49,045 nt of DNA from Chitinophagales bacterium (GTDB lineage: Bacteria; Bacteroidota; Bacteroidia; Chitinophagales; CAIODY01). Shown piece after piece: positions 2,552-48,481 of this stretch. The number at the start of each line of letters is the position of its first letter. Positions within the stretch are counted from its first letter, which is position 1. Location of the stretch: the NCBI GenBank assembly GCA_026461075.1, contig JAPJNH010000108.1:1-49045 (forward strand), given 5' to 3'. Position numbers and translations under genes: made by a program. A model generated the notes under the pieces. It saw only the letters and a list, made by a program, of their open reading frames with translations. It was not told where the DNA came from and searched no databases.

Positions 2552-4618
2552 ATGAAGAAAATTAGCCTTCTATTTTTAATGGGGATGTCAGCCATGTTCA
2601 GCGCTAAAGCGCAATATTGGATGATCCCTAATCCAAATGCAGGTAACAATCCTGGTGGATTGAATACCTATGTGGAGCAACCTAGTACGGCTGCAGCACC
2701 TTGGACTACGATTCAAGCAACTAGTGCAACAGCAGCTTGGTCGCCAGCACAAACGATTCCTTTTACCTTCCAATTTAACGGTGTAACGGAAACAAGTTTC
2801 AAAGTTTCTACCTCTGGTGTATTAACATTCGACGTAGCAACAGCACTTCCTGCGCCTGCAAGCACGAACGCAGCATTACCAAGTGCTTCCATTCCTGATA
2901 AGTCAGTGTGCGTTTGGGGTTTACAAGGTACCGGTGCAAATGATAAAATTATCACTACCGTTTTAGGAACCGCTCCTAATCGTCAATTGTGGGTGTCATT
3001 TAACTCTTACAGCCATGCAAGTTCTGCAACCATTTACACCTATTGGTCAATTGTGTTGGAAGAAACATCTAACAAGATTCATATCGTTGATCAACGTGCG
3101 GGTAACTCAACAGGTGCTGCAGTAACATTGAACCTTACTGCTGGATTACAATTCAATAGCACTTCTGCTATGATGGTTCCAGGTTCTCCTGCTTTGAATT
3201 CTGCATCGAATCCTGCTTTGGATGATGCGTCTGATAATAGCTATTGGACTTATGTTCCGGGTACGCAACCTACGGATGAAATCATGTTGGTAGACGTTAC
3301 TCCTCATGATGGCGCTACAGCTTCTTATATTTTATCTCCAGGTAATATGCCAATTACGGCAAAGGTAGTTAACTACGGTACGAATACAATCACTGGTTTT
3401 ACGTTTACTTATGATGACGGTAGTGGTCCTGTAAGTGATGTTAAAACTGGATTGAACATCGCTCCATTCCAAACTTATTCTTTCGTTGTTAGTCCTGCTG
3501 TTCCTGTTACTGCGACAACTCACAAAGCAATTAACTGTGTGGTTACAATGACTGGTGATACGGATCCAATGAACAACTATTTCATCACTGGTGTTACCGG
3601 TGCTGCCTTCAATCCTGTTCACTATGTAACTTTTGAAGAAGCTACAGGTACTTGGTGTGGATGGTGCCCAAGAGGTGCTGTATACATGGATTCAATCCAT
3701 AAAGTGAAAGCGGATGCAGTAGTTATCGCAGTACACAATAATGATCCAATGACTGAAACGACTTATGATGCAGGTATTGGTGGCTTTATTAGTGGTTATC
3801 CTTCAATCGTAGTAGATCGTAAAGAAACAGATGATCCTTCAGCAGCTTTCGCGCAATATACTGCACACAAACCTGACTTTGGTTTCGCAGATATCACGTT
3901 AACGAATACGCTTTCTGGTATGAACCTAACTTCTGACGTTAGCTGTCATTTTGCGGTTGACTTAGCTGGTTCTTACCGTTTGGCTTATATCGTAACTGAA
4001 GACAATGTTACAGGTACAGATGCTAGTTACAATCAAACTAACTACTATTCTTCTGCGTCTCAAAATATTGCATTGAATGGTGCTGGTCACGTTTGGCAAT
4101 CAGAAACAAATCCTGTTCCTGCTGCAAAAATGGAATACGATTTCGTAGCACGTGTAATTGATAATACCTTCACTGGTCGTGCAAACACCATTTCATCTCC
4201 AGTAACTGCTGGTTCAACACAATCTTATTCATTTAACTATACGATCCCTGCAGGTAGCAATCCATTAGATTTTAATGCAATTGCTTTGTTGATTGATCAA
4301 ACTTCAGGAATGATTTTAAATGCGAATCAGTCTCGCGTTAATTTCCCGAATGGAACAACAACTAACGACTTGCAAAATAGCGTTTACATGTATCCTAATC
4401 CTGCTTCTGATCGAGTTTCTGTATTCGTTCAAAGCAATAAAGGAAATAACTTCCGTGTAGATGTAATGAATTTGTTAGGTCAAGTTGTGCTTTCAGAAAC
4501 TTCTGTAGCTGCAACTGGTAATGTATTATTGAACACTGCGAACTTAACTGCTGGTCAGTATTTAGTTCGTGTAAGCAATGGTGCAGAACAAACAACTTTG
4601 AAATTGACTAAGAACTAA
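2552..4618 (+). CDS. Omp28-related, thioredoxin-like T9SS cargo protein
   Basis: A 688-residue secreted protein. Residues 1-21 form a signal peptide ending at SAKAQ. Residues of about 30-230 look like a beta-rich domain I do not recognise. A CARDB-like stretch follows (about 240-345). From about 358 comes an Omp28-related domain that contains a thioredoxin-like CGWC motif (C369, C372), followed by HNNDPM and a YPSIVVDR segment like the cis-proline loop of thioredoxins. The end (about 612-688) is a T9SS type-A sorting domain with YPNPASDRV, LGQVV and a final KLTKN. Family knowledge suggests outer-membrane or surface attachment; a redox role at the surface is inference from the CxxC. It ends at a strong terminator and is convergent with pyrC. 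Confidence 0.85.
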   Translation: MKKISLLFLMGMSAMFSAKAQYWMIPNPNAGNNPGGLNTYVEQPSTAAAPWTTIQATSATAAWSPAQTIPFTFQFNGVTETSFKVSTSGVLTFDVATALPAPASTNAALPSASIPDKSVCVWGLQGTGANDKIITTVLGTAPNRQLWVSFNSYSHASSATIYTYWSIVLEETSNKIHIVDQRAGNSTGAAVTLNLTAGLQFNSTSAMMVPGSPALNSASNPALDDASDNSYWTYVPGTQPTDEIMLVDVTPHDGATASYILSPGNMPITAKVVNYGTNTITGFTFTYDDGSGPVSDVKTGLNIAPFQTYSFVVSPAVPVTATTHKAINCVVTMTGDTDPMNNYFITGVTGAAFNPVHYVTFEEATGTWCGWCPRGAVYMDSIHKVKADAVVIAVHNNDPMTETTYDAGIGGFISGYPSIVVDRKETDDPSAAFAQYTAHKPDFGFADITLTNTLSGMNLTSDVSCHFAVDLAGSYRLAYIVTEDNVTGTDASYNQTNYYSSASQNIALNGAGHVWQSETNPVPAAKMEYDFVARVIDNTFTGRANTISSPVTAGSTQSYSFNYTIPAGSNPLDFNAIALLIDQTSGMILNANQSRVNFPNGTTTNDLQNSVYMYPNPASDRVSVFVQSNKGNNFRVDVMNLLGQVVLSETSVAATGNVLLNTANLTAGQYLVRVSNGAEQTTLKLTKN

Positions 4619-4745: not shown

Positions 4746-4844
4746 ATTAAAATGGTTCGTGAGACACGTCCCGAAGATTCGGGACATAACGTGAGTCACG
4801 TCCCGAAGAATCGGGACATAAAGTGAGACACTAACCATTTTAAT
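4746..4844. repeat. Nested inverted/tandem repeat cluster
   Basis: An outer 12-bp inverted repeat, ATTAAAATGGTT (4746-4757) and AACCATTTTAAT (4833-4844), encloses tandem 32-bp units beginning at 4759 and 4791, with a partial third at 4823 (GTGAGACAC). Each unit carries a small palindrome, TCCCGAAGATTCGGGA in the first and TCCCGAAGAATCGGGA in the second. It lies in the convergent gap before pyrC, ending three bases short of its stop codon. No coding capacity is seen. Confidence 0.85.
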
Positions 4845-13207: not shown

Positions 13208-16200
13208 ATGAAAAAACTGTTGTACACGCTTTTTGCGGTGCTTTTGTTTGTTAGCACGCGTAGCTTTTCACAGAGTGTTACGGTCACTTCTCCTAACGGA
13301 GGAGAAAGTTGGGCGGGTTGTAGCACGCACAATATTACCTGGACGATAAGCGGTACCAGTCATTACTATAATATTGATTATTCCATCAATGGCGGTTTAA
13401 CCTGGATATTCTTGGCAACAGGTTATAATCAGCCGGGTAGCACTGGGTCTTTTGCCTGGACTTTGCCAAACTTGAGTAGCAATCAAGTGAAGGTTCGAGT
13501 TTATGATCAAGGAACGCCAAGTGTAGTGGATGAAAGTGATAATACTTTTTCCATTAACGCGCCTTTAATAGTCACCTCACCTAACGGAGGGGAAAGCTGG
13601 CAAGTGGGAGGATCGACACGTACTATTAGCTGGACTGCAGCTGGTACAAGCAATTATTATGATTTAGATTATTCTACGGATAATGGCGTTACATGGAATT
13701 CCATTATAAGTAATTATTATCAGAGTTCTACGAATGCTTCCTATACATGGACCATTCCTAATAATCCATCCACTACTGCGCTAGTGAGAGTGAAGGATCA
13801 TACTACCAGTTGTATGAGTGACGTGAGTGATGCGATATTTACCATAGTACCGCCTACGCCAAGTATAACAGTAACTGCCCCTTCAACAGGATCTACTGTT
13901 TATTGGTCCAATCCGACTAGCATTACCTGGTACTCGAGTTATACCTCTGCATCTTTTGTTAAGTTAGAATATAGTTTGAACAATGGAAATAGCTGGACCA
14001 CGATAGTTAACAGTACGAGTATGTCGACGGGCTCTTATTCATGGACGCCTCCATCTTCCTATACTACACAGGCATTAGTGCGTGTGAGCGAAATTGGTGG
14101 AACATCTGCTGTTGGCACATCAGGGAACTTTACGATCCGTCAGCCTTATATTGTTTTGAGCGCACCTAATGGAGGAAATACCTTTACAGGTTGTGGCAAT
14201 ACGACGATTAGTTGGACGCCATTTGGGACTTCTGGTCCTTACACCATTGAATTGAGTACGGATGGTGGTGTGACTTATACATCCGTTGCCACCACGAGTT
14301 CTTATACTTCTAGCTATAGTTGGAATCCGATTAATAACGTACAAACTTCGCAAGCGCGTATTCGCGTGAGCGCAAGTAACGCGGTGAGTGATACTTCTGC
14401 TAGCAATTTTACAATCAACAAGAATACGGATGTAATTGTGAATGCTCCTAACGGAGGAGAGATATGGACTGTCGGTACTGTTCATAATATTCAATGGTCC
14501 TTTGCCAATATGAGTAATTACTATTGGAATTTGGAGTACTCTACCGATAATGGGGTTACGTGGAATGCTATTAATACGAGCTATTATGCATATTCTAGTC
14601 CTGCTTCGTTTTCTTGGAGTGTGCCGAATAATCCATCGATGAATGCATTGGTACGTGTAACGAACACTTCTAATACGTGTAAGAGTGATGTAAGCGATGC
14701 GGTCTTTACTATTCAACCTGCGACACCATTCATTAGTGTCAGTTCGCCAAATGCTGGTAGCACCGTTTATTGGAATAATTCGACGACCATTTCTTGGTTC
14801 TATGGATACACGACCTCAAACTTTGTTAAGATTGAGTATAGTACGAATCAGGGTAGCACTTGGAATACGATTGTCAATAGCACCAATATCTCTGCGGGAT
14901 CTTATACATGGCCTGCAGCTTCTATTCCAAATGTGTTGACGAATCAGGCATGGGTTCGTATTAGCGAAATAGGAGGAACGAATGCAATCGATACATCCGC
15001 TTATTTCACCATTCGTCAACCGTATATTGTATTGAATTCACCTAATGGCGGAAATTCATTTATAGGATGTAGCTCAACCAATATTACTTGGACGGGCTAT
15101 GGGGTAACAGGCTCTTACGCCCTAGAGCTGAGCACAAATGGAGGTGCCACCTTTACGCCAATTGCGTATCCTTCAGCCTATACTGGGTCTTACTCTTGGA
15201 ACCCAATTAATAATCTTCAAACTTCTCAAGCCCGTATTCGAATTATAAGTGCTGGAGCCGTTCCGGATACATCAAATGCAGATTTTACGATTAATCAAAA
15301 TACAGATGTGATTTTGAATAGTCCTAACGGAGGCGAAGTATGGCAAGTGGGAGGTCCAACACGTACGATCAATTGGTCGTTTGTGAACATGAGCAATTAT
15401 TACTGGAACATTGAGTATTCGACAGACAACGGAGTTACATGGAATTCGATTACCAGTAGCTATTATGCGTATAGCAGTCCTGCGTCATACACCTGGTCAA
15501 TACCGAATAATCCTTCGACCACCTGTTTGGTTCGTGTAATAAATACATCTAATACGTGTAAGTTTGATGCGAGTGATGCTGTTTTCACTATTGCACCACC
15601 AACACCTTACATCAGCGTAAGTAGTCCTGGAGCCTCCACCGTTTATTGGGGGAATAGTGCCACTATTAACTGGGGTTATGGCTATACCACGTCTAATTTT
15701 GTCAAGATAGAATACAGTACCAATCAAGGTAGTACTTGGAATACGATTGTGAACAGTACGAATATCTCCACAGGTTCCTATACATGGCCTGCCGCGAGTA
15801 TTCCGAATATCACAACGAATCAAGCTTGGGTACGCGTGAGTGAAATAGGAGGTACCAATGTGAAGGATACTTCTGCTTATTTTATTATACGACAACCTTA
15901 TATTGTATTGGGTAGTCAGAACGGTGGGCAGTCCTATATTGGATGTAACGCTACAACAATTAACTGGACTGGTTATGGCGTAACATCGTCTTATGTCATT
16001 TATTTAAGTACAAATAACGGGGCTACTTATACGCCAATTGCCTATCCTTCAGCCTATACAGGTTCCTTCTCTTGGAACCCAATCAATAATGTACAGAGTT
16101 CGCAATGTAAATTGATTGTGGCAGCAGCTAATGCAATTTCAGATACTTCTAGTGCTGTATTCACGATCAACCAAAATACAGATGTAATCTTGAATACCCC

Positions 16201-19200
16201 AAATGGAGGTGAAGTTTGGACGGTCGGTGGTGCTGCGCAAAACATCCAATGGGTGTTTGCTAACATGAGCAACTATTATTGGAATATCGAGTATTCTACA
16301 GATAATGGGTTGACTTGGAATACTATTACAAGTAGCTACTACGCTTATTATAGTCCTGCATCTTATTCGTGGGCAATACCGAATAATCCTTCGACGACCT
16401 GTTTGGTTCGTGTAACCAACACTTCTAATACTTGTAAAAACGATGTAAGTGATGCTGTGTTTACGATAGCGCCTCCAACTCCATACATCAATGTAGGAAA
16501 TCCTGGCGCTTCAGTTGTGTATTGGGGTAACAGTGCTACGATTAACTGGAGTTATGGCTATACGACCTCGAATTTTGTAAAAATTGACTATAGTACCAAT
16601 CAAGGTAGTACCTGGAACACGATCGTAAATAGTACAAATATTTCCACAGGTTCTTATACTTGGTCAGCTGCAAGTATTCCTACTATTACGACCAATCAGG
16701 CTTGGGTGCGTGTAAGTGAAATAGGAGGAACGAATGCCAAAGATACCTCTGCTAATTTTACGATTCGCCAACCTTATATTGTTTTAGGAAGTCAGAATGG
16801 TGGACAATCCTATGTGGGTTGTAATTCCACCACAATTAACTGGACCGGCTATGGTGTAACATCGTCGTATATCATTTATTTGAGTACAAATAATGGGGTT
16901 AGTTATTCGCCAATAGCATACCCATCTGCTTATACAGGGTCTTATTCATGGAATCCGATTAATAATGTTCAGAGTTCGCAATGTAAATTAATTGTAGCGG
17001 CTTCTAACGCAATTCCGGATACATCTAGTGCGGTATTTACTATCAATCAAAATACAGATGTTGTATTGAATACTCCTAACGGAGGCGAAGTGTGGACGGT
17101 CGGCGGTCCTGCACAAACGATTCAATGGACCTTTGCCAATATGAGTAATTATTACTGGAATATAGAGTATTCAACAGATAATGGATTAACATGGAATAGT
17201 ATTACAAGTAGTTATTATGCATATTATAGTCCTGCTTCCTATTCTTGGGCTATACCGAATAATCCTTCGACGACCTGTTTAGTACGCGTAATTAATACTT
17301 CTAATACTTGTAAAAATGATGTGAGTGATGCGGTATTCACGATAGCACCACCAACGCCTTATATTAGTGTCGGTAATCCGGGTGCTTCGGTTGTGTATTG
17401 GGGGAATAACGCCACGATTAACTGGAGTTACGGTTATACGACTTCTAGTTTTGTAAAAATAGAATATAGTGTCAATCAGGGCAGCACATGGAATACTATT
17501 GTGAATAGTACCAATATCTCTTCTGGTTCCTATACTTGGTCGGCGGCGTCTATTCCAAACGTTTATACTAATCAGGCTTGGGTACGTGTTAGCGAAGTAG
17601 GAGGGACCAATGCCAAGGATACCTCTGCTAATTTTACGATTCGCCAGCCATATATTGTTTTGGGAAGTCAGAATGGAGGCCAGTCTTATGTGGGTTGTAA
17701 TTCCACTACGATTAACTGGACCGGCTATGGAATTACTTCGTCTTATGTCATTTATTTAAGTACAAATAATGGCGTTAGTTTTACGCCGATTGCTTATCCA
17801 TCTGCTTATACAGGGTCTTATTCATGGAATCCGATTAATAATGTTCAGAGTTCACAATGTAAATTGATGGTTGCTGCTTCTAATGCAATCTCAGATACAT
17901 CAAGTGCTGTATTTACCATTAATCAAAATACAGATGTGATGATTAGCTCTCCTAACGGAGGCGAGGTTTGGGCGGTAGGTGGCCCAGCACAAACGATCAG
18001 TTGGTCGTTTGCAAACGTTAGTAATTACTATTGGAATATTGAGTATTCAACTGATAATGGTTTGACTTGGAACACAATTTCGAATAGCTATTATGCGTAT
18101 TATAGTCCTGTAAATTATACTTGGACCATCCCGAATACGCCTTCTACCAATTGTTTGGTGCGTGTTATTAATACATCCAACTCATGTAAAATGGATGTCA
18201 GCGATGCTGTATTTACTATATCACCTCCTGTACCTTTTATTACGGTTTCTAGTCCGAATGGAGGAAATACATTATATGGAAATGCGAGTACAACAATCTA
18301 TTGGAGTAGTGGTTATTTGACTTCTTCTTTTGTTAAGTTGGAGTATTCTTATGATAATGGAACTACTTGGAATACGATTATTAATTCCACCAATAATACG
18401 GGTTCCTATAATTGGAATTCGGTACCAGCAACCTATAGCACACAATGTTTGGTGCGTATTACTGATTTAGGCAATGCAGGAAACTACGATATTTCAGATG
18501 CGGTATTTACTATCGCGCCACCTATCACAGTCACTGCCCCTAATGGAGGAGAGAATCTTGGTGGTTGTACCGTGACTACCGTTACGTGGAACGCAGGTGG
18601 AACTTCTTTGTATTATGATTTATTTTATTCTTTAAATAATGGCGTGACTTGGAATTCAATCACGAGCAATTATTATCAAAGTGGTGTTAGCTGTTCTTAT
18701 AACTGGACCTTACCCAATTCACCATCTACTTTGTGTCTTGTAAAAGTGGTAGATCATTCTATTGCAACGAAGCAAGATATTAGTAACGCGGTATTTACCA
18801 TTCAGCCAACTATCACAATCACCAACCCTAATTTCGGAGGGAATTTCCAAGCGAATAATGCAATGAATATTACCTGGAATGCACAAGGGGCTTCTGGATA
18901 TTACAATGTTGATTATTCTACCAATGGTGGTACCACATGGACGAACATAACCACGAATCAACTTATTCTTACTGGATCATATAGTTGGACTACGCCAAAT
19001 ATGAATCTGGGTAATGTGCTAATACGTGTAATGGACTACGTGAGCAATTGTAAACAAGATATAAGTGATATTGCATTTGGTATTTCAACTACTGCAGCGC
19101 CTATAACTGTTTCTTCACCGAACGGTACAGAGCAGTGGACGGTTTGTGATACCACGAAAGCGATTACATGGACAAGCAACGGAAGTACTTCAGGGACATA

Positions 19201-22200
19201 TGATATCGAGTTAAGTACTAATTCTGGTAGCACTTGGACGAGTATCATTAATAACTATAGTAGTAATAATGGTTATTATAAGTGGACTATTCCAAACTTA
19301 CCAAGTACTAGCTGTTTGGTGAGAGTGAAAGACCATTCGAATGGATCCATTTTAGATGCTAGTAATGCAACCTTTAGTATCGTTGCGCTTGCGCAACCCG
19401 GTGCCATTACAGGTGCGACTACTGTTTGTCAGGGAACTTCACAGACGTATTATTGTCCATTGGTTAGCGGGGCTACGAAATATATTTGGACGCTTCCTAG
19501 CGGCTGGGTAGGGTATTCAACCAATAACGCGATTACAGTAAGTATTGGTGCTTCTAGCGGTTCTATAGGTGTTATGGCAATGAACGCTTGCGATACATCG
19601 CTTGCGCAGCTTTTAGCTATTACAGTGAATCAGTTACCTTCTATGCCGGGTAGTGTAAGTGGACTTGCTTCCATTTGCGCTAATAGCACGCAAAGCTATA
19701 CCGCTTCTGCAGCTTCTGGCGCGAGTTCTTATTCTTGGACCTTACCGAGTGGATGGACAGGTACTTCTTCTACTACGTCGATTTCTTCCATTGCAGGTTC
19801 TACTAGTGGCAACGTAAGTGTTATTGCGAATAACGCTTGCGGTAGTAGTGCCGCTTCCGTATTACCTGTTTCAATAATTACAGCGCCTTCTACTCCAGGC
19901 TCTATAACAGGCTTAAGCACGCCTTGTCAAAATACTTTACAAAGTTATAGTGTAAGCGCAGTTCCTAACGCAAGCTTTTATACATGGACTTTGCCTAGCG
20001 GTTGGACAGGCACTTCTAATACAAGTACCTTGTCTACAACAGTTGGAACTGTGAGCGGCAATGTATTAGTGTCAGCCGGGAATGCCTGTGGATCTGGAAC
20101 TGTTTCAACATTAGCAGTTACTATTGGGAATGTACCTGCTACGCCGGGAACAATCACTGGTTCGGATACTTCATGTGTCGGAGCAAATGTAATTTATAGT
20201 ATTACGCCTATCAGCGGCGCAACTTCTTATACCTGGTCATTGCCAAATGGCTGGACCGGAACTTCCACGACTAATTCAATTTCTGCAGTGGTTGGTGCCA
20301 ATGGCGGCGCAATCTCAGTTAAGGCAGTTAATGCTTGTGGTAACAGTGCAAGTGCTTCAAAAATAATTGTGGTGAATCCTGCGCCAAGCAATATCGGCGC
20401 TATCTCTGGTAATTTGAATGTTTGTCAAGGAAATACGCAGTCTTATTCTGTATCCTTAGTTCCTTACGCTTCAAATTATACTTGGACCTTACCAAACGGC
20501 TGGACCGGTACTTCTACAGCCTCATCCATCAATACCATTCCTGGTGCGGCTGGTGGAACTGTATCTGTAATAGCCTCGAATCAATGTGGAGCTACTAGTC
20601 CTCAAACACTAACGGTATCAGTGAATCCATTACCGGCTTCGCCTGGTACGATTAGTGGGAACGCAATCATTTGTCCGAATGCTTCTATGACTTATTCTTT
20701 CGCTGCTGTGAGTGGTGCAAGCGCTTATACATGGAGCTTGCCGAGTGGTTGGACAGGGACTTCTACTACGAATAGTATCAATGTTACAGCAAATACGAAT
20801 GGTGGCACGGTGAGTGTGAACAGTGTCAATAGTTGTGGTTCTTCTTCTCCAACTTTATTAGGCGTTACGGTTTCTTCTAGTGTACCAACGCCTAGTGGTG
20901 TTATCGGACAAAATAATGTATGTGGAGGAGCAACAGTCACCTTACATGTTTTACCTGTTGCCGGTGCAACTTCTTATAGTTGGACTTTGCCAGGATCTTG
21001 GTCTGGAGCTTCTGTTACGGATTCTATTCAGTTGACTGTAGGCAATAATTCCGATACTGTTTGGGTACGTGCACTAAATGCTTGTGGTGTAAGCGCTGCT
21101 TTGCCTTTTGTTATTAATGTAAATCCTTCTACATCTCCGAGCATTGCTATTAACGGTTCTTCAAGTATATGTGCGGGTAGTATTGCGAATTATACTTCTA
21201 GTGTAAGTAATGCAGGCGCAAACCCAAGTTATAGTTGGAATGTAAATGGTATTGCAAGTGGAATCACTGGCGCGAGCTTCTCTACGGCTAGCTTATCTAA
21301 CGGAGACGTGGTGACCTGTACCGTTACAAATAACTCTGGTTGTTCATCTCCTGCTTCTGTAACTTCCAATGCATTAAATGTGATAGTTAATACGAGTGTA
21401 ACTCCTAGTATTGCAATTGCAGTCAATTCAAATCCTATATGTGCTGGTGCTGCCGCTAATTTTATTGCGACTAGTCAGAATGGAGGAACTGCTCCAACGT
21501 ATAATTGGTTTGTGAATGGGGTTAATCAAGCGGTGAACACCGCTGGCTTTAGTACTAGTAGCTTGCTGAATGGTGATGTTGTTACTTGTCAATTAACTTC
21601 TAATGGCTCTTGCTTAACAAGTTCTATTGCGTCTTCAAATGCACTAAACATGCAAGTGACGACTGTAAGTGCGCCTTCAATAAATATTACATCTAGTGGC
21701 AATACCATTTGTCCGGGTGCAAGTGTTTCGTTTATAGCAAATACAACAAATGCAGGAAGCGCTCCTGTTATTGATTGGTTTGTCAATGGCGTTTTAATGG
21801 CAAGCGGAAATAATTCGTTCACGTCTGCCACATTGAATAATAACGATACAATTTATGCTAGTGTTACAGCAACGGGCATTTGTTTGTCTCCTTCTATTGT
21901 GAACTCTAATTTGCAAGTCATTTCAGTCGTTGCCGGCGGAGGAACGCCTACCGCAAATATCACTGCTAATAATACAGCAATTTGTAGTGGCGCAACCGTT
22001 GTATTTAATGCATTGGTTCAAAATGGAGGTTCTTCACCAAGTTATGATTGGGCAGTGAATGGTGTTTCTACAGGTGTAACCACATCTACTTATTCTAATA
22101 ATAATTTGAGTAATGGTGATATTGTTACGTGTAATGTGGCAGGAACGAACTCTTGCGCTCAAACGTATACCATTACCTCAAATGCGATAACGATTACCGT

Positions 22201-25108
22201 AAATGCAAGTGCTAATCCTGCAATTTCAATCAGTACAAATGCAAGTACCATCTGCTCCGGTACGAATGTTACTTTTATAGCACTCGATACCAATGCTGGA
22301 TTGAATCCTGCTTATCAATGGTCTTTGAATGGCATTGCGATTCCTTCTGCTTTTGCAAATACCTATAGCTCGAATTCCCTTCAGAATGGTGATGTGATTA
22401 GCTGCCAACTTACAGCTAACGGTGCATGTGCAAGCCCTAGCGTAATCAGTTCTAATTCCATTACGATGAATGTCGGAAGTTCTGTCCTTGCGACAGCAGC
22501 TATTACGGGAACAAATACATTGGTATGCGGTACAGGGGCTTCTAATTTTGTAGCAACAGTTACTAATGCTGGATCTAATCCTGCTTATCAATGGTTGTTG
22601 AACAATAATCCAATCGCAGGGGCAAACACCTTGACCTACACCGATACATTGAACAACGGAGATCAAGTTTCTTTTGTGCTTACTAGCAACGCAGCCTGCG
22701 TTAGCAATGTTACGGCTAATTCAAATGTAGTAAGTATCACCGTAAACCCAATTGATACAGCATCTATTCTTATTAGTGCAAATAATAATTCAATTTGCGC
22801 AGGTATGCCAGTAACGTTCAATGCAAGTGTTGTAAACGGCGGTGCGAATCCGGTTTATAATTGGTACGTGAATGGAGTGAGCACAGGTGTTAACGCAGTA
22901 AATTATGTAACAAGTACCTTAGCAAATAATGATGTCGTTACGTGTAATCTTGTTTCTTCGCAAGCCTGCGTACTTAACGCGAGTGTGAGTTCGAATGCAA
23001 TTACCATGGCGGTCGTTAATTCAGCTGCCCCAACGATAACAGTTAACGCAAGTTCAACGACTATTTGTTCAGGAACTACTGTTAGCTTTACCTCCACCAT
23101 CGCAAATGCGGGTGCGGCTCCTACTTATCAATGGAATTTAAATGCTGTGCCAATTAGTGGTGAAACGAATCCGGTATATAGCACTAGCGCATTGAATAAT
23201 GGAGATGTTGTTACATGTACTTTAAACGCCATGGGTGTTTGCGGATCGAATACTATTGTTACTTCTAATCCTGTCACCATAACAGTTACAGCAGCATTAA
23301 CACCGAGTGTAGTGATTGCACTGAATACCCCAACTATTTGTGCAGGGGCGAATGCTAGCTTTACGGCTACGGGATTAAATATGGGAACGAGTCCGCTCTA
23401 TCAATGGTATGTAAATAGTGTGGCTATTCCTACTGCTACTAATTATCAATGGAACTCCTCTTCTCTAACAAATAATGATACCGTTACTTGTTTGATTACC
23501 GCAAACCCTAGTTGCGCTGCAATTAACACGGCACTCTCCGCGCCAATCGTTGTAACGGTGAACACATTGATTACGCCAAGTATCAGTATTACTGCAAATG
23601 ATACTAGTATCTGTGCGGGAACAAGTGTGAGCTTTACGCCGAATCCTATTAACGGAGGTGTTGCGCCTACTTATACGTGGTATGTGAATGGAGCAAATAC
23701 GGCTAGTGGAAATACGTTCACTTCCTCTTCTTTACAAAATAATGATGTGGTGACTTGCGCCTTAACTAGTAGCTTGTCATGCGTAAGCAATAATCCAACT
23801 AATTCGCCTTCGATAGTAATGCAAGTTGGAACACCGGTAAATCCTGTTCTTACAGTAAACGCGAGTGCAACAGTAATTTGCTCAGGAACATCGGTTAGCT
23901 TCAATGCAATCGCTTCTAATGTTGGAACGAGTCCTACCTATCAATGGCTGCTCAATAATAATCCGATTCCATTAGCAAATGCGGCTACATATTCTTCAAC
24001 TGCATTAAATAATGGCGATCTTGTTCAAGTAACGGTCAACTCATCCGCGGCTTGTACGGTGCCTGCTGCCATTACTTCTAGTCCTGTAACGATGACAGTG
24101 AATACTTCTGTAACGCCATTTGTTTCTTTAATTGCTAATCCATCGAATATCGTTTGCTCTAATGTGCCATTGAGTTTCAATGCTACGCCGGTTAACGGAG
24201 GAACTGCTCCTCAATATTCATGGTACCTAAATGGTGTGTTAGTTGGTACAAGCACTGTTCCTACCTTCACTCCTGCGAATATTCAGAATGGCGATACTGT
24301 TTCCTTGACACTTAACTCTTCAATTGCTTGCGCAAGTACAAATCAAGCCAATGCTACGCCAGTTATCATGACTATCAATACTGCTCCGGTAGTAACTAGT
24401 CTAACAAGCAACGGACCAGTATGTGAAGGCACAAACTTATTGTTGAATGCACAAGCAAATGACCCGAATGCGGTGTTCGCTTGGACAGGTCCTAATGGCT
24501 TTACGTCTAATTTGGCTTCGCCGATTTTGACTAATGTGAATAATAGCAATTCCGGTATTTATACTGTGACAGCTAGCGCGAATTCTTGTGTGAGTGCTCC
24601 TTATAGCAGTATTATGCAAGTGAATCCTAATCCAGCTAAGCCTTATATCTCTGTTAATGGAAATGCCCTGAGCTCCTCTGCTCCGTCAGGTAATCAATGG
24701 TATTTTGCTGCTTCGCCAATTAATGGGGCTACTAATAATACCTACACTGCCACGCAAGTGGGGTATTATCAAGTGCAAGTCACGAATGCGGCCGGATGCT
24801 CATCCATCTCCGATTCAGCGCATATAAGCAAAATTATCGGGGTAGGCTTGAATGATCTGACTATTATTGCTCCGCGCATTTATCCAAATCCTTTTGAAAA
24901 TGATTTGATGATTGAGTGGCCAAGTGAAATCAAGGATAAGTCTAACTTAAAGTGGCAATTGCTAAATATCCATGGACAAGTGATTAGAGAGGGTAGTGCG
25001 GAGAATAACAAAGAAACACTTAGCTTATTTGAATTGAACGCAGGTACCTATGTGTTGAAAATTGCCTACAAAGAAATCCAATGGCAATATCCACTCGTTA
25101 AACAATAA
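13208..25108 (+). CDS. Giant secreted Ig-like/PKD-like repeat protein, T9SS cargo
   Basis: A single uninterrupted 3,966-residue frame. Residues 1-22 are a signal peptide. Residues 23 to about 2061 hold 21 beta-sandwich modules of about 97 residues marked by SPNGGE, TWNxI, WxIPNNPS and SDAVFTI; many form an A-B-C triplet of exactly 292 residues. Residues of about 2063-2644 hold seven PKD-like modules of about 83 residues, each with a Cys near the start, WTLPSGWTGTS, and an ACG/QCG near the end. Residues 2645-3727 hold twelve Ig-like modules of about 90 residues with ICAG, NGDVVTC and a later Cys. Two further Ig-like stretches precede a T9SS type-A domain at about 3890-3966 (YPNPF, LNIHGQV, NAGTYVLKI). 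It is probably a surface adhesin or filament. No enzyme domain is seen. A strong terminator follows. Confidence 0.93.
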   Translation: MKKLLYTLFAVLLFVSTRSFSQSVTVTSPNGGESWAGCSTHNITWTISGTSHYYNIDYSINGGLTWIFLATGYNQPGSTGSFAWTLPNLSSNQVKVRVYDQGTPSVVDESDNTFSINAPLIVTSPNGGESWQVGGSTRTISWTAAGTSNYYDLDYSTDNGVTWNSIISNYYQSSTNASYTWTIPNNPSTTALVRVKDHTTSCMSDVSDAIFTIVPPTPSITVTAPSTGSTVYWSNPTSITWYSSYTSASFVKLEYSLNNGNSWTTIVNSTSMSTGSYSWTPPSSYTTQALVRVSEIGGTSAVGTSGNFTIRQPYIVLSAPNGGNTFTGCGNTTISWTPFGTSGPYTIELSTDGGVTYTSVATTSSYTSSYSWNPINNVQTSQARIRVSASNAVSDTSASNFTINKNTDVIVNAPNGGEIWTVGTVHNIQWSFANMSNYYWNLEYSTDNGVTWNAINTSYYAYSSPASFSWSVPNNPSMNALVRVTNTSNTCKSDVSDAVFTIQPATPFISVSSPNAGSTVYWNNSTTISWFYGYTTSNFVKIEYSTNQGSTWNTIVNSTNISAGSYTWPAASIPNVLTNQAWVRISEIGGTNAIDTSAYFTIRQPYIVLNSPNGGNSFIGCSSTNITWTGYGVTGSYALELSTNGGATFTPIAYPSAYTGSYSWNPINNLQTSQARIRIISAGAVPDTSNADFTINQNTDVILNSPNGGEVWQVGGPTRTINWSFVNMSNYYWNIEYSTDNGVTWNSITSSYYAYSSPASYTWSIPNNPSTTCLVRVINTSNTCKFDASDAVFTIAPPTPYISVSSPGASTVYWGNSATINWGYGYTTSNFVKIEYSTNQGSTWNTIVNSTNISTGSYTWPAASIPNITTNQAWVRVSEIGGTNVKDTSAYFIIRQPYIVLGSQNGGQSYIGCNATTINWTGYGVTSSYVIYLSTNNGATYTPIAYPSAYTGSFSWNPINNVQSSQCKLIVAAANAISDTSSAVFTINQNTDVILNTPNGGEVWTVGGAAQNIQWVFANMSNYYWNIEYSTDNGLTWNTITSSYYAYYSPASYSWAIPNNPSTTCLVRVTNTSNTCKNDVSDAVFTIAPPTPYINVGNPGASVVYWGNSATINWSYGYTTSNFVKIDYSTNQGSTWNTIVNSTNISTGSYTWSAASIPTITTNQAWVRVSEIGGTNAKDTSANFTIRQPYIVLGSQNGGQSYVGCNSTTINWTGYGVTSSYIIYLSTNNGVSYSPIAYPSAYTGSYSWNPINNVQSSQCKLIVAASNAIPDTSSAVFTINQNTDVVLNTPNGGEVWTVGGPAQTIQWTFANMSNYYWNIEYSTDNGLTWNSITSSYYAYYSPASYSWAIPNNPSTTCLVRVINTSNTCKNDVSDAVFTIAPPTPYISVGNPGASVVYWGNNATINWSYGYTTSSFVKIEYSVNQGSTWNTIVNSTNISSGSYTWSAASIPNVYTNQAWVRVSEVGGTNAKDTSANFTIRQPYIVLGSQNGGQSYVGCNSTTINWTGYGITSSYVIYLSTNNGVSFTPIAYPSAYTGSYSWNPINNVQSSQCKLMVAASNAISDTSSAVFTINQNTDVMISSPNGGEVWAVGGPAQTISWSFANVSNYYWNIEYSTDNGLTWNTISNSYYAYYSPVNYTWTIPNTPSTNCLVRVINTSNSCKMDVSDAVFTISPPVPFITVSSPNGGNTLYGNASTTIYWSSGYLTSSFVKLEYSYDNGTTWNTIINSTNNTGSYNWNSVPATYSTQCLVRITDLGNAGNYDISDAVFTIAPPITVTAPNGGENLGGCTVTTVTWNAGGTSLYYDLFYSLNNGVTWNSITSNYYQSGVSCSYNWTLPNSPSTLCLVKVVDHSIATKQDISNAVFTIQPTITITNPNFGGNFQANNAMNITWNAQGASGYYNVDYSTNGGTTWTNITTNQLILTGSYSWTTPNMNLGNVLIRVMDYVSNCKQDISDIAFGISTTAAPITVSSPNGTEQWTVCDTTKAITWTSNGSTSGTYDIELSTNSGSTWTSIINNYSSNNGYYKWTIPNLPSTSCLVRVKDHSNGSILDASNATFSIVALAQPGAITGATTVCQGTSQTYYCPLVSGATKYIWTLPSGWVGYSTNNAITVSIGASSGSIGVMAMNACDTSLAQLLAITVNQLPSMPGSVSGLASICANSTQSYTASAASGASSYSWTLPSGWTGTSSTTSISSIAGSTSGNVSVIANNACGSSAASVLPVSIITAPSTPGSITGLSTPCQNTLQSYSVSAVPNASFYTWTLPSGWTGTSNTSTLSTTVGTVSGNVLVSAGNACGSGTVSTLAVTIGNVPATPGTITGSDTSCVGANVIYSITPISGATSYTWSLPNGWTGTSTTNSISAVVGANGGAISVKAVNACGNSASASKIIVVNPAPSNIGAISGNLNVCQGNTQSYSVSLVPYASNYTWTLPNGWTGTSTASSINTIPGAAGGTVSVIASNQCGATSPQTLTVSVNPLPASPGTISGNAIICPNASMTYSFAAVSGASAYTWSLPSGWTGTSTTNSINVTANTNGGTVSVNSVNSCGSSSPTLLGVTVSSSVPTPSGVIGQNNVCGGATVTLHVLPVAGATSYSWTLPGSWSGASVTDSIQLTVGNNSDTVWVRALNACGVSAALPFVINVNPSTSPSIAINGSSSICAGSIANYTSSVSNAGANPSYSWNVNGIASGITGASFSTASLSNGDVVTCTVTNNSGCSSPASVTSNALNVIVNTSVTPSIAIAVNSNPICAGAAANFIATSQNGGTAPTYNWFVNGVNQAVNTAGFSTSSLLNGDVVTCQLTSNGSCLTSSIASSNALNMQVTTVSAPSINITSSGNTICPGASVSFIANTTNAGSAPVIDWFVNGVLMASGNNSFTSATLNNNDTIYASVTATGICLSPSIVNSNLQVISVVAGGGTPTANITANNTAICSGATVVFNALVQNGGSSPSYDWAVNGVSTGVTTSTYSNNNLSNGDIVTCNVAGTNSCAQTYTITSNAITITVNASANPAISISTNASTICSGTNVTFIALDTNAGLNPAYQWSLNGIAIPSAFANTYSSNSLQNGDVISCQLTANGACASPSVISSNSITMNVGSSVLATAAITGTNTLVCGTGASNFVATVTNAGSNPAYQWLLNNNPIAGANTLTYTDTLNNGDQVSFVLTSNAACVSNVTANSNVVSITVNPIDTASILISANNNSICAGMPVTFNASVVNGGANPVYNWYVNGVSTGVNAVNYVTSTLANNDVVTCNLVSSQACVLNASVSSNAITMAVVNSAAPTITVNASSTTICSGTTVSFTSTIANAGAAPTYQWNLNAVPISGETNPVYSTSALNNGDVVTCTLNAMGVCGSNTIVTSNPVTITVTAALTPSVVIALNTPTICAGANASFTATGLNMGTSPLYQWYVNSVAIPTATNYQWNSSSLTNNDTVTCLITANPSCAAINTALSAPIVVTVNTLITPSISITANDTSICAGTSVSFTPNPINGGVAPTYTWYVNGANTASGNTFTSSSLQNNDVVTCALTSSLSCVSNNPTNSPSIVMQVGTPVNPVLTVNASATVICSGTSVSFNAIASNVGTSPTYQWLLNNNPIPLANAATYSSTALNNGDLVQVTVNSSAACTVPAAITSSPVTMTVNTSVTPFVSLIANPSNIVCSNVPLSFNATPVNGGTAPQYSWYLNGVLVGTSTVPTFTPANIQNGDTVSLTLNSSIACASTNQANATPVIMTINTAPVVTSLTSNGPVCEGTNLLLNAQANDPNAVFAWTGPNGFTSNLASPILTNVNNSNSGIYTVTASANSCVSAPYSSIMQVNPNPAKPYISVNGNALSSSAPSGNQWYFAASPINGATNNTYTATQVGYYQVQVTNAAGCSSISDSAHISKIIGVGLNDLTIIAPRIYPNPFENDLMIEWPSEIKDKSNLKWQLLNIHGQVIREGSAENNKETLSLFELNAGTYVLKIAYKEIQWQYPLVKQ
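14423..17926 (+). repeat. Four tandem 876-bp in-frame units
   Basis: The codon run for NTDV recurs at 14423, 15299, 16175, 17051 and 17927, every interval being exactly 876 bp (292 codons). Each unit encodes modules A, B and C. Small length differences inside units compensate: the first unit is one residue shorter in A and one longer in B. A fifth, more divergent ABC-like unit precedes 14423, and module A plus altered modules follow 17927. Confidence 0.93.
19394..21139 (+). repeat. Seven PKD-like modules (coding repeat)
   Basis: Seven in-frame modules of about 83 codons in the giant gene. Each has CxG or a variant followed by YxWTLPSGWTGTS and a final ACG-type cysteine. The first (YIWTLPSGWVGYS) and the seventh (WTLPGSWSGAS) are the most divergent. 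Confidence 0.85.
21140..24388 (+). repeat. Twelve Ig-like modules (coding repeat)
   Basis: Twelve in-frame modules averaging 90 codons. Typical marks are an ICAG or ICSG turn, YxWxVNG, LxNGDVVTC and a third Cys about 10 residues later. Some modules have lost the middle Cys (for example NNNDTIYASV in module 3), so disulfide patterning is not uniform. Confidence 0.85.
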
Positions 25109-35048: not shown

Positions 35049-37970
35049 TTATCGTTGAAGGATTAAGTATCCTTTTGTTTGGCCGCCTTCGGTATTTTCT
35101 GCACTATTAATGATGTAGAAATAAGTGCCGTCAGGTAAATCCGCTCCGTTATATCTTCCATCCCATTTAGTGTCGTAGTGCTCTGTTCTATAAACGACAT
35201 TTCCCCATCTATTGTAAATGATTAATGCGCAATCGGGAATGCAATTCCCCGGATTAATAAGTTCTAAATAATCATTTTTGCCATCATTGTTTGGTGAAAA
35301 ACCTTCAGGTATTTCACAATGACAGGACGGACAGTTGTAGTCAATATAAATACTTGCAGTATCACTAATACCATTTTGTGTGAGTACGTATTGAATGGAA
35401 TCTTTAAATGTTTTACTATCTGCGCTAAATAGAATATCAAGGCCATTCACCTCGAAGTGGCCATAATTACTTTGGTCAAGTAAAGTTATCGTAGGAGATG
35501 AATTAGTGGAGTAATGGTCATTGAGTGTGAAATGAAGGATGCTATCTGAACAGCCTAAATTTCCTGAATGTGTATTAAAGGTGTCATTGATTGCATCTAA
35601 AGCCACTCGGATTAAAATTAACGCAGTGTCCTCATAAACCCTTAAATCTAAGGTGTCGCGCAAAATATAGATTGCGGTGTCGTAGCCTACAAAATCAAGC
35701 TTGGGTGAATAGGAGAATTCAATCTTATTGATGGTAGAGGCGATGTAGCCAATTCCATTTTTACAAGGCATTTGTAAAGAGAAGCTGCTATGGTCGTATT
35801 TATTAATCGAACTAGTATCGTTCAATTCAATTTGAATTGTTTTACTAGTATTAGCCGTAGTAAATAAGTGATTGTAATTAGCTTGTAGAAAAACACTGTC
35901 TGTACAAACAATAAAGGAAACACTATCTGTCGCAGTACATGCTCCATTATCAATTTGTAAAACGAAATTTTGTGTGCTTAATTGTGTTAGGCTTGGATTT
36001 AATATGCTGTCATTATTCAAGGCGCTGGATGGAAACCAAGTAGGATTCCCCGTTCCAAAACCTAAAAGTTGATGTGCATAATAACCTCGTGCAGGACAAT
36101 AAAATATATCCTGCCCCGCATTCGCAATTGGTTTGTTTTTTACAATAACAGCAACGGCTGTATCATAGGAACAACCTTGCGGTGAGGTGTATTGATAACG
36201 AATTAAGTAAGGTTTCCCAACCTGTATAGCCGTATCATTCGGGTCGAATAAGTTATTATTAAGCGGGATAAGGTTGCCATTAATAATTAATGAGAATTGC
36301 CCGCCGGCAGGTAGTGCATTTAATAGGATCGGTACCTCTCCTTTACAAAACATTTTCTTAAAAGGTAATTGAAAGTTGGGTAAAGGGAATATGGTGACTT
36401 TGATTGAATCTGTTGCGGAGCCGCACTTAGCGTTACCCGCATCCAAAACAGTTAAATTATATTGTGTTGTATTGCTTGGTTGTGCAACAGGGTGTGCAAA
36501 GCTAGGATTGTTAAGTGTTTGACTCGGCTGCCATTGATAAATGAAATTTCCAGTCCCTCCAGAGGCGACTTGCAATTGAGCGCCAAGAATAATACTATTG
36601 CCTAAACAGATACTTTGATTCAAGCCCGCATACGCTTTTATTGAGTCGAAAACATCCACCAAAAGGCTATCCTTATTTTTACAACCATTGGTGCCTAAAA
36701 CTTCTAAAGTATACCAGGTGTCGCTACTTGGGTAAACATAAGTTGAAGAGGTGTATATATTAGAAATTGCAATATTGGGGGTCCATGAATAATGATACCC
36801 AGAAATCGAACTACCTCCAACTGATATGCTATCACGGAAACACGCCTTGTATAGATGCTTTCCTTGTAAATCAACTACGGGTAAAGGCCTTACCGTAACT
36901 TGCATGGTGTTAGAGTCGCTACAACCATAAGCACTCACCTTTAGTTTATAGCTTGTGGTATTAGTAGGGAAGGCAAGAGGCTGTGCAAGCTTAGAATTAT
37001 TTAAACTAGTACTTGGAGACCAAAGATAGTTCCATCCAGATTTTTGAGCGGAACCAATTATTATGGAGTCGCCGTAACAAATACTTACATTACTGCCCGG
37101 ATTAGCGATTAAACTATTTACTACGTTAACCGTTACTTGCGCATTCCCAGTGCAGTAGTTTGTGTCAGTAACAAATAAGGTATATATGGTATTGGCAATT
37201 GGATTGGCTATAGGCTGTGCAATACTACTGTCGTTTAAGCCGTTTCCAGGAAACCATAAATAATTTAAGTTAGGTTGAGATACGGAACCTAAAGTAACTG
37301 CATTTCCATTACATACGGTCGCGTTATTACCTGCATTGACAATCGGAGGCGCTACTGTCTTTACTAGTACACTGTCTCGCGTTAGACAAGCTCCCTTGTT
37401 GACGGAAATATAGTAATAAGCGCTCTGCGCAGGTGCTACCAGTATGATTCTTGAATTGCCAATATAAGCGCCACTAGCATCTGTCCAGCTAATGCTTGCA
37501 CTTGTTGTATCGGACGTTCCAATTAAGACACCACTCGTATTCGTACAATATTTTTTGCTTGCACCCGCGTCTGCAATGGACCCTCTTACTTCAACTTGTA
37601 AGGTATCTGTATAGGCTACATTGAAAATGTCGTAAACACTTAAAGTGATGATTTTTATTCCCGGAGTGGAGAAAACTGCCGAAGCTTGTGTTTGATTGAG
37701 TATGGTGGATGTTTGCGCTCCAGGTGAAAAAGTCCACATCCTCGAAGTGGGCTGAAACGGGTCATGTATGCATGTGTCCTGAACTTTTAAGGTATCCCCT
37801 AAACAAATCGAAGCTCTATTATAACTAAAAGTATGTGGATGTCCGCCACCGCTAGGCTTTGATTGAACCACAGTTGAGTCAATGCAAAAAACTAAGCCTA
37901 GTAAGAAGGTGAAAAGTATATGTTTATTAAGGACGGACAATGCAGTTGATTTGAATTGCAATTTAATCAA
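35049..37970 (-). CDS. Secreted Ig/PKD-like protein with T9SS type-B sorting domain
   Basis: A 973-residue protein. A signal segment is at about 16-37 (HILFTFLLGLVFCI). A PKD-like domain follows (CLGDTLKVQDTC ... GIKIITLSVYD). Then come five or so Ig-like repeats with NAG-type starts, IC.G and YLWSP marks. A different beta-rich region lies at about 690-880. The end is a gliding-motility-associated type-B sorting domain: EGFSPNNDGKNDYLEL, IYNRWGNVVY, WDGRYNGADLPDGTYFYII and a final GYLILQR. There is no ATG in the first 40 codons; the start given is a TTG placed directly after the pdxJ stop (TAA TTG). Downstream TTG codons (37961, 37940) are alternatives. It is probably a surface protein; ligand unknown. 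Confidence 0.87.
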   Translation of the reverse strand: MIKLQFKSTALSVLNKHILFTFLLGLVFCIDSTVVQSKPSGGGHPHTFSYNRASICLGDTLKVQDTCIHDPFQPTSRMWTFSPGAQTSTILNQTQASAVFSTPGIKIITLSVYDIFNVAYTDTLQVEVRGSIADAGASKKYCTNTSGVLIGTSDTTSASISWTDASGAYIGNSRIILVAPAQSAYYYISVNKGACLTRDSVLVKTVAPPIVNAGNNATVCNGNAVTLGSVSQPNLNYLWFPGNGLNDSSIAQPIANPIANTIYTLFVTDTNYCTGNAQVTVNVVNSLIANPGSNVSICYGDSIIIGSAQKSGWNYLWSPSTSLNNSKLAQPLAFPTNTTSYKLKVSAYGCSDSNTMQVTVRPLPVVDLQGKHLYKACFRDSISVGGSSISGYHYSWTPNIAISNIYTSSTYVYPSSDTWYTLEVLGTNGCKNKDSLLVDVFDSIKAYAGLNQSICLGNSIILGAQLQVASGGTGNFIYQWQPSQTLNNPSFAHPVAQPSNTTQYNLTVLDAGNAKCGSATDSIKVTIFPLPNFQLPFKKMFCKGEVPILLNALPAGGQFSLIINGNLIPLNNNLFDPNDTAIQVGKPYLIRYQYTSPQGCSYDTAVAVIVKNKPIANAGQDIFYCPARGYYAHQLLGFGTGNPTWFPSSALNNDSILNPSLTQLSTQNFVLQIDNGACTATDSVSFIVCTDSVFLQANYNHLFTTANTSKTIQIELNDTSSINKYDHSSFSLQMPCKNGIGYIASTINKIEFSYSPKLDFVGYDTAIYILRDTLDLRVYEDTALILIRVALDAINDTFNTHSGNLGCSDSILHFTLNDHYSTNSSPTITLLDQSNYGHFEVNGLDILFSADSKTFKDSIQYVLTQNGISDTASIYIDYNCPSCHCEIPEGFSPNNDGKNDYLELINPGNCIPDCALIIYNRWGNVVYRTEHYDTKWDGRYNGADLPDGTYFYIINSAENTEGGQTKGYLILQR

Positions 37971-43102: not shown

Positions 43103-43113
43103 TTGATTTTTGC

Positions 43114-43121
43114 TTAATTTG
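43114..43121 (+). promoter_or_regulatory. Possible porQ -7 element TTAATTTG
   Basis: One mismatch from TAnnTTTG (the A at position 2), six bases before the porQ ATG, the same spacing as at ilvE. Confidence 0.4.
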
Positions 43122-43127
43122 GAACAA

Positions 43128-44171
43128 ATGAAGATACGTTTGTGCCTTTTTGTTCTGTTGTTCTCCTTGCATGCGAATGCGCAAGTAGGAGGACTGCATA
43201 CCTTTAGTTTTCTAAATTTACCAAGCTCTTCGTTTGTAAACGTTCTCGGACCTGCAGCGGATGCGGCAGAAAGAACGAGTATTTCAAATGCGTATAGAAA
43301 TCCTGCATTGCTCGATAATTCGTTGAATAATGCAATAGAAGTGAACCATACCTTTTGGTTTGCAGGTATCCAAAGTGGGTATGTCGCTACCGCCAGAACG
43401 ATTCATAAATCGGTATTTGCTGGAGGTTTGCAATATATTAATTACGGGAAATTTGAATCGAACGACGCATACGGTAATGGAAATGGGTTCTTTAATTGTT
43501 CTGAATACAACGCACACTTAAGCTGGTCGAAAGAAATCGCTCCGAGATATCATTTTGGCTATCGTACCGGCTTTGCCGCAAGTTATTTCGAAGCAGATAA
43601 TGCCTATGCATGGACAAACAGCCTTGGCGTATTGTATAGTGATACATCCAAGCGTTTTAAGGCTGGACTTACGGTATCCAATTTCGGATTTATAGGGAAT
43701 TATTTTGGAGGCAAAGGAAGAGATCCTAATGAAAGCCTTCCTTTAGATATTCGTCTTTCTGTTTCAAAGCGCTTGGAGCATATGCCTTTTACCTTTTACG
43801 CAGCGGCGCAACATTTAGAACAGTTTTATATTCGATATCCAGAGCCAGTAATTAGCACTTCTATCGATGGTTCTGATACCCTCGGCGCTTATACCAATAA
43901 GTATATTTTAGATAATATCGCTCGCCATTTGGCTGTGGGCGGTGTGTTCCATTTTGGAAAAAGTTTTGATTTGCAAGTGGGGTACAACCATCTGCGACGC
44001 AAAGAATTGAAAAATAACGACAGAGCGGGGATGACAGGCTTTTCCATGGGCTTCGAGGTGAAAACAAAATTCGCCTGGGTGGCTTACAGTCGGAGTTATT
44101 TTAATCCTGCTATGGCCAATAACTCACTTAGTTTTAGGATTCCCATGAATTGGAGTAAAAAAGCAGGCTAA
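43128..44171 (+). CDS. porQ: Type IX secretion system protein PorQ
   Basis: A 347-residue outer-membrane beta-barrel candidate from ATG 43128; the six codons upstream of it are not part of the signal peptide. The signal peptide MKIRLCLFVLLFSLHANAQ is followed by GGLHTFSFLNLPSSS, then AADAAERTSISNAYRNPALLD. This is the typical opening of the PorQ/PorV-like barrel family, with the NPALL turn. Alternating strands run to the end. In Porphyromonas gingivalis PorQ belongs to the T9SS attachment machinery at the outer membrane. The presence of several T9SS cargos in the same window fits. It starts 25 bases after gcvT and ends 64 bases before lspA. Confidence 0.8.
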   Translation: MKIRLCLFVLLFSLHANAQVGGLHTFSFLNLPSSSFVNVLGPAADAAERTSISNAYRNPALLDNSLNNAIEVNHTFWFAGIQSGYVATARTIHKSVFAGGLQYINYGKFESNDAYGNGNGFFNCSEYNAHLSWSKEIAPRYHFGYRTGFAASYFEADNAYAWTNSLGVLYSDTSKRFKAGLTVSNFGFIGNYFGGKGRDPNESLPLDIRLSVSKRLEHMPFTFYAAAQHLEQFYIRYPEPVISTSIDGSDTLGAYTNKYILDNIARHLAVGGVFHFGKSFDLQVGYNHLRRKELKNNDRAGMTGFSMGFEVKTKFAWVAYSRSYFNPAMANNSLSFRIPMNWSKKAG

Positions 44172-47356: not shown

Positions 47357-47896
47357 ATGCTCAAGCATCTTTTAATTTTAGGGTTCCTTTTTTTAGGGAT
47401 TAATTCCGTTTCAATAGCAAATGATTTTAAACTAGATCAAGGCTCCATTGAAACTAAGTTTGATAATTCGGTAGAAGTTCCAATTGAACATTTTACTTAT
47501 TTTGCTGCAATTAAGGATGGGGTTATATCACGGGTGATTGATCAAAATATTGCGGGAGTGTTAGCTATTTGTTGTGGTACATTTGGAGCACATCGTTTCT
47601 ATATGGGGCAAATGGATGCGGGATTAAAGCATTTAGCTGTCACAGTTTTGGTTGGAGCATTTGGAGCCGCCTCATTGATAGCCCTAGGCACAACATCCCC
47701 AACCGGAACAACAACTACTTCTAACATAATTACAGGTTTTAGTATGGTTACCTATGGTTTGGCTTATTGTGGTAGTTTTGCGCATGGTGTTTATACCCTT
47801 GTTGAAGGAATTATGTATTTAGTCATGCCCGAAGCAAAATTTCAAGGTAAAATAGTAAAAGACCCTGCCTTTTTTGCAGCTTTCAAAAGAGATTGA
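47357..47896 (+). CDS. TM2-domain-like membrane protein, tandem copy 1
   Basis: A 179-residue protein. It has an N-terminal signal-like segment (about 1-21), then the element DFKLDQGSIETKF shared with the two following genes. About 30 residues later comes the TM2 signature GVLAICCGTFGAHRFYMGQ with GLKHL. The first helix is followed by an extra hydrophobic region (about 120-140) before the second signature VEGIMYLVMPEAKF, so the module spans about 110 residues against about 50 in a standard TM2 domain. It ends with a short charged tail. Function unknown. Two paralogues follow at once, on the same strand. Confidence 0.75.
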   Translation: MLKHLLILGFLFLGINSVSIANDFKLDQGSIETKFDNSVEVPIEHFTYFAAIKDGVISRVIDQNIAGVLAICCGTFGAHRFYMGQMDAGLKHLAVTVLVGAFGAASLIALGTTSPTGTTTTSNIITGFSMVTYGLAYCGSFAHGVYTLVEGIMYLVMPEAKFQGKIVKDPAFFAAFKRD

Positions 47897-47932
47897 TTTA
47901 TTCTCAACTTTGTAAAAGTCAAATTGTTTCCT

Positions 47933-48466: not shown

Positions 48467-48481
48467 TCTAAAAAACTAATT

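Follow-up and report, generated by a model that had tools for sequence, protein, structure and literature searches.

An A-B-C super-repeat of Ig-like modules with a strict inter-domain cysteine code in a giant Bacteroidota protein: a putative disulfide-clasped stalk

The stretch of DNA analysed here (the window, 49,045 nucleotides of a Chitinophagales bacterium; GenBank assembly GCA_026461075.1, contig JAPJNH010000108.1) encodes a protein of 3,966 amino acids that contains an array of 21 immunoglobulin (Ig)-like modules of 94-101 residues (13277-19384). The modules are arranged in the order cap-(A-B-C)x5-A-B-x1-x2-x3. Our best explanation, to which we assign a probability of about 0.75, is that this array is a disulfide-clasped stalk in which the differences between joints make A-B-C the unit, the C=A joint being locked and the A-B joint hinged. 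In other words, the A-B-C super-repeat would exist because the joints between modules differ. The basis for this reading is the array itself, the order of its modules, the clustering of module classes, the statistics of cysteine pairing, the recurrent module number and the signal for the type IX secretion system (T9SS).

The cysteines are not scattered over the modules. In 673 aligned modules they are concentrated at three columns, one in the AB loop (column 14), one in strand F (column 68) and one in the FG loop (column 79). In the window protein, the AB-loop cysteine is present in the C modules, the cap, x1 and x3, the FG-loop cysteine is present in the following A modules, and the B modules have neither. 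Of the 104 modules with an AB-loop cysteine (donors) in the first set of homologues, 93 are directly followed by a module with an FG-loop cysteine (acceptor). At lags 0, -1, +2 and +3 the count does not rise above chance, and the high values at lags -2, -5 and +4 simply reflect the three-module period. Among the 11 exceptions, ten show a BC-loop cysteine instead, two of them within an insert outside the match columns, and in the eleventh the next module is cut by the contig end. In an antiparallel sandwich, the BC and FG loops share the N-terminal pole. BC-loop cysteines were admitted as acceptors after these exceptions had been seen, and the rule then held when the same model was run on 36 additional regions of other genomes. 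In the enlarged set of 44 proteins, including that of the window, an acceptor (FG or BC loop) is present in the next module for 278 of 278 donors, counting donors with a complete next module, versus 17 of 674 after donor-less modules. The added regions were found through a clasped-pair profile, which favours clasped proteins and forces neither donor matching nor lag +1.

A donor and its acceptor are always adjacent, but an acceptor can lie at different distances from the donor that follows it; therefore, it is adjacency and not the period that is conserved. No module of the enlarged set has both an AB and an FG cysteine, so that the A-B joint is never clasped. The B-C joints have both cysteines in 48 cases, neither in 114, the acceptor only in four, and the donor only in none. 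In several families, B also carries a donor and the next C a BC-loop acceptor, and there both are absent from the final B-C joint. One genome (G383) has two paralogous 21-module arrays, L120 and L121, with B-C clasped in one (nfnN) and unclasped in the other (nf-). We infer that the paired cysteines form inter-domain disulfides locking C to A. The strand F cysteine (column 68), present in 290 of the 673 modules, was considered as a clasp partner and set aside as class-independent and probably a core residue. An additional cysteine pair, at the start of strand E (column 54) and at column 68, is present mainly in donor modules (15/17 donor modules with C54). This pair, seen at 18524-18811 of the window and in donor modules of L046 and L065, may be an intra-domain disulfide.

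The proposed mechanism is as follows. The 21 beta-sandwich modules would form a stalk, the distal part of a giant T9SS substrate, in which the AB-loop cysteine at the C-terminal pole of one module bonds the FG-loop cysteine at the N-terminal pole of the next at the C-A, cap-A0 and x1-x2 joints. The B-C joint would be unlocked in the window protein and would have a second lock in sister families, and the never-locked A-B joint is likely a universal hinge. The predicted covalent grouping is thus B-(C=A), not an A-B-C unit starting at NTDV, and the stalk would consist of stiffened C=A doublets joined by hinges, with B=C=A blocks taking their place in sister families. At the cell surface, this arrangement would probably give the stalk reach and help it withstand pulling or proteolysis. 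Recombination in whole-trio register would homogenise the copies, and selection would keep the classes, the linker lengths and usually seven clasps.

The original prediction had noted an exact 876-bp spacing, and this is confirmed: the NTDV-coding sites are 14423, 15299, 16175, 17051 and 17927, every interval being 876 bp. When residues 1-2150 of the protein are compared with themselves, lag 292 is the best by far (50% identity), followed by 584 and 876, with all others at or below 18%. The array is missing from the Tandem Repeats Finder list because the longest period of the program is 500. With module borders set by cutting at the conserved SPNGG-like start, the three modules within one unit are about 30-40% identical, and the same module across units is 57-94% identical. 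The ordered trio that had been read from the sequence is real, but it begins earlier, with A0-B0-C0 (about 288 residues, not 292), and runs on into A5-B5. The motifs suggested as module signatures proved less specific: SPNGGE starts many module types and not A alone, SQNGGQ is limited to C2-C4, and VYWGNS is exact only in B2-B3. Length changes do compensate within units, in the window and in the sister species described below, but the effect is weak, consisting of one step only (A1 100 to A2 101 and B1 98 to B2 97 residues). NTDV was rejected as a unit boundary, since it falls inside the presumably locked C-A joint; the trio is a genuine period all the same, as indicated by shared classes, order and the C-A cysteine code.

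The homologues come from 68 genome loci and from genome searches at order, class and phylum level. Among them, the A-B-C order is not broken at equal frequency, which would have spoken against the trio as a period: of 173 steps from A to A, 142 span three modules and 25 span four, through an additional B or C. The exact period of 292 residues is genus-specific, the trio step of the family being 288.6 ± 4.0 (range 273-299). Linker length depends on the type of joint (12 at A-B, 9-10 at B-C, mostly 11 at C-A), and the C-to-A linker often has an NTD-like motif. A class tree of 213 modules from 13 open reading frames (ORFs) was made with the cysteine columns masked; it has few columns and is weakly resolved. 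Donor, acceptor and neither labels change 17 times on this tree versus 99 times for shuffled labels, and the window B modules cluster with those of Bacteroidales, Flavobacteriales and others. It appears that A, B and C are ancient classes common to distant Bacteroidota, the tree giving their clustering rather than exact ancestry. The nfn ending of the closing modules x1-x2-x3 is also common to distant homologues.

The number of modules recurs as well. Complete 21-module arrays are present in the window and in L033, L049, L050, L118-L122, L134, L135, L137, L138, L142 and L143, and L048 also has 21 modules if the stop that splits it is ignored. Arrays of 23 modules (L046 and L065) and 24 modules (L052, L136, L139 and L141) still have seven FG acceptors in all six cases, which brings the arrays of 21, 23 or 24 modules with seven acceptors to about 20, with fewer independent cases than rows, as L134 and L049, and some others, look closely related. 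The stop in L048 (8963-16870) is in module 10 and divides the array ORF into open frames of 963 and 1,672 residues, due to pseudogenization or a sequencing error. The clasp seems to be peculiar to T9SS proteins of Bacteroidota, since the SPNGG-type arrays of L101 and L109 (archaeal bins), L053, L054, L063 and other non-Bacteroidota loci lack donor cysteines.

A different explanation of the regular spacing is that the trio is a recombination unit only, arisen by lineage-specific tandem duplication, with no structural meaning and too little time for indels. The comparison with a sister species of the same genus (G002, contig CANGEV010000001.1, a Chitinophagales metagenome bin) bears on this. Its array has the same ORF length, 21 modules and module order as that of the window, with five NTDV points exactly 292 residues apart. 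Within each species, units 2-4 differ by a nonsynonymous divergence (dN) of 0.04-0.08, less than the 0.105-0.128 between orthologous units 2-4 of the two species, and units 2 and 4 of the sister species show a conversion tract. Therefore, these units have been homogenised in whole-trio register, as the recombination explanation would have it, and other local periods (4 and 7) in homologues also speak for it. However, synonymous divergence (dS) between units of one genome is mostly 1-2 and often saturated, leaving ample time for indels. Thus, the exact spacing is no artefact of recent duplication, and a recent tandem duplication was rejected as its source. Orthologous units 0, 1 and 5 pair between species (dN 0.05-0.10), and the period is kept in arrays with old units only about 50% alike (L050). 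The presence of the same classes in the same order in distant families largely contradicts recombination as the sole explanation, which we regard as quite unlikely. Judging from the sequences, the protein sequence and length of the units are kept by strong purifying selection after homogenisation.

It is just as improbable, in our estimate, that the cysteine partners are real but bind metal or cross-link neighbouring fibres. One cysteine per face could also bridge two chains, and canonical VKOR or DsbB is missing from most array-bearing genomes searched. On the other hand, the adjacency within the chain is strict while the distance to other partners varies, inter-chain bonding needs no partner exactly in the next module, and the pair alignment has no conserved His or Asp beside the cysteines, as a metal site would need. 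The original prediction favoured a fixed superhelical turn per trio, forming a stiff helical fibre. This is compatible with a disulfide clasp, and we give it a small chance, slightly better than that of the two preceding explanations. Joint-specific linkers and locked C-A joints would yield a reproducible twist per trio, and the recurrent module numbers count in its favour. In contrast, the A-B joint is never clasped, extra B or C modules in L035, L046 and L052 would break the helical phase, and the structure models do not bear out a fixed turn. An AlphaFold2 model of A2 to A4 (seven modules, 30 aligned homologous segments) has confident domains, with a mean predicted local distance difference test score (pLDDT) of 90.4, but a predicted template modelling score (pTM) of 0.45. 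For the C2-A3 pair (69 rows), pLDDT is 94.7 and pTM 0.81, which suggests a defined C-A arrangement, and the predicted secondary structure has Cys15 of the pair in the segment connecting strands A and B, and Cys178 in the one connecting F and G. Fold searches of the PDB with the seven- and two-module models gave generic tandem Ig and fibronectin type III structures (query TM-score at most 0.39), and no solved pair in the same arrangement as C-A is among the matches listed.

Several observations weigh against the disulfide-clasped stalk. The pTM of the seven-module model is only 0.45. The disulfides are predicted from sequence. The modules, which come from 44 proteins, are non-independent observations. 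L135 has one module with an FG cysteine and no preceding donor, and L035, L036, L062 and L146 deviate in module number and from seven clasps. Finally, the oxidation machinery is not evident, with VKOR in 1/16 and DsbB in 0/16 array-bearing genomes; DSBA-fold matches were found in 14/16, of which some may be cytoplasmic. Experiments have established disulfide bonds that link outer-membrane T9SS proteins of Bacteroidota with periplasmic ones (PMC12635249).

The layout of the protein is given in Table 1. Its N-terminal signal peptide was recognised by eye, and its C-terminal sorting domain scores above both curated cut-offs (PF18962, 37.0 bits, cut-off 27; TIGR04183, 30.4 bits, cut-off 23), the matches spanning residues 3891-3965. 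The host, a freshwater Bacteroidota bacterium, encodes a T9SS translocon (SprA_N, E 2.7e-163, contig C75 of the same assembly). The protein is probably secreted via T9SS and exposed at the surface. No adhesive domain is among its Pfam or NCBIfam matches, and the modules themselves could bind. It may act as an adhesin or a spacer.

Table 1. Layout of the array protein, in window positions
Feature	Position	Strand	Remarks
Array ORF, 3,966 aa	13208..25108	+	signal peptide, 21 SPNGG-type Ig-like modules, 7 PKD_6, ~14 further Ig-like domains, T9SS type A C-terminal sorting domain
Cap module m0	13277..13567	+	AB-loop Cys38 (codon 13319), first predicted clasp donor
Trio 0	13568..14431	+	A0 13568-13864, B0 13865-14149, C0 14150-14431; A0 acceptor Cys202, C0 donor Cys329
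Trio 1 (A1, B1, C1)	14432..15307	+	A1 acceptor Cys491, C1 donor Cys621
Trio 2 (A2, B2, C2)	15308..16183	+	A2 acceptor Cys784, C2 donor Cys913
Trio 3 (A3, B3, C3)	16184..17059	+	A3 acceptor Cys1076, C3 donor Cys1205
Trio 4 (A4, B4, C4)	17060..17935	+	A4 acceptor Cys1368, C4 donor Cys1497
A5 and B5	17936..18523	+	A5 acceptor Cys1660
Closing modules x1, x2, x3	18524..19384	+	x1 donor Cys1787, x2 acceptor Cys1948, x3 donor Cys1980
Seven PKD_6 domains	19385..21128 (borders approximate)	+	one AB-type plus one FG-type Cys per domain; the first also has Cys2083
~14 Ig-like domains	21129..24854 (borders approximate)	+	AB-type and FG-type Cys in all but the last, which has the FG type only (Cys3864)
T9SS type A C-terminal sorting domain (Por_Secre_tail, PF18962 / TIGR04183)	24878..25075	+	residues about 3891-3956, profile matches

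The domains downstream of the array may extend the same principle. From x3 on, pairing each domain with the next gives 21 donors (x3 included) versus 21 acceptors with no orphan at either end, while pairing inside domains leaves one orphan cysteine per end. The chain has the same ends in L033, L050, L123, L134, L138 and L143. A lag test gave p values of 1e-5 for lag +1, 1e-4 for lag -1 and 0.013 for lag 0, but it is a weak test because nearly all of these domains carry both cysteine types. Tentatively, and with the odds somewhat against it, the entire stalk could be one covalent chain. In that case, giant T9SS stalks would have a disulfide between each domain and the next, hinges would be confined to the trio section, and the seven clasps would act as a length standard.

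The likeness of the modules to known families is weak. Taken singly, SPNGG-type modules are above the cut-off of no curated stalk family. Single-module similarity to Reelin subrepeat B (PF21471), Kre9_KNH (PF10342) and BNR/Asp-box (PF02012) is weak and includes an Asp-box-like S-x-D-x-G-x-T-W hairpin, but the window pair falls below the curated cut-offs (20.4 bits versus 27 for Reelin_subrepeat-B). Kre9_KNH matches 42 of 69 module pairs (best E 1.5e-9), the window pair not among them. A sequence search of solved structures gave only weak Reelin and gamma-adaptin matches.

The E-G5 repeats of SasG/Aap (PMC4458895) also form a long monomeric surface stalk with a unit of unlike modules and mechanical joints. 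However, SasG has no covalent cross-links and its coupling is by cooperative folding, unlike the strict inter-domain cysteine code predicted here for Bacteroidota proteins exported by T9SS. The giant adhesin of Mobiluncus (PMC10619420) is likewise a giant tandem Ig-like protein with covalent stabilisation (ester, isopeptide and disulfide), but its bonds are inside single domains, whereas the predicted bond would join neighbouring ones. Fibrillar adhesins and their stalk domains, including PKD_6 (PF19408; PMC8286594), share the repetitive stalk layout with the array protein, which has tandem stalk domains (seven PKD_6 and 21 SPNGG modules), but no known adhesive domain was found in the latter. 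The SprB-type gliding adhesins (PMC12635249, PMC12618676) are also giant T9SS substrates; SprB has a type B sorting domain, in contrast to type A in the array protein. The disulfides described in the T9SS and gliding machinery, SprF-GldK and PorG-GldK (PMC12635249, PMC12618676), are between machinery proteins and not between repeats. In the open literature searched, subscription papers being mostly outside the search, we found no account of such proteins that combines a higher-order repeat with disulfides between domains.

Tandem Ig-like stalks are usually viewed as strings of equivalent beads, but here the sequence alone suggests locked versus free joints. Cysteine pairing without exception in 278 donors would give a physical reason for the higher-order repeat, and the clasp pattern could be a readable stiffness code for giant surface proteins of Bacteroidota. 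With the clasped arrays it can also be tested if selection keeps the module number constant in the face of recombination, and the clasped trio may offer a natural template for covalently stapled protein rods.

The window contains a few other features. The region 35049-37970 (-) encodes another large protein of T9SS type that contains Ig-like domains. Its AB/FG cysteine pattern includes acceptor-only domains, and its C-terminal end resembles the gliding-motility-associated (type B) sorting domain. The product of 43110-44171 (+) was recognised by eye and is presumably similar to the T9SS component PorQ. Three paralogous genes in tandem at 47357-49000 (+) encode small membrane proteins of 179, 180 and 172 amino acids, each with a signal peptide. 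A 32-bp repeat, CGTGAGACACGTCCCGAAGAATCGGGACATAA, is present in 2.3 copies between convergent genes (4758-4831) and contains an inverted repeat, and ATGAATG is repeated 5.7 times at the window edge (119-158).

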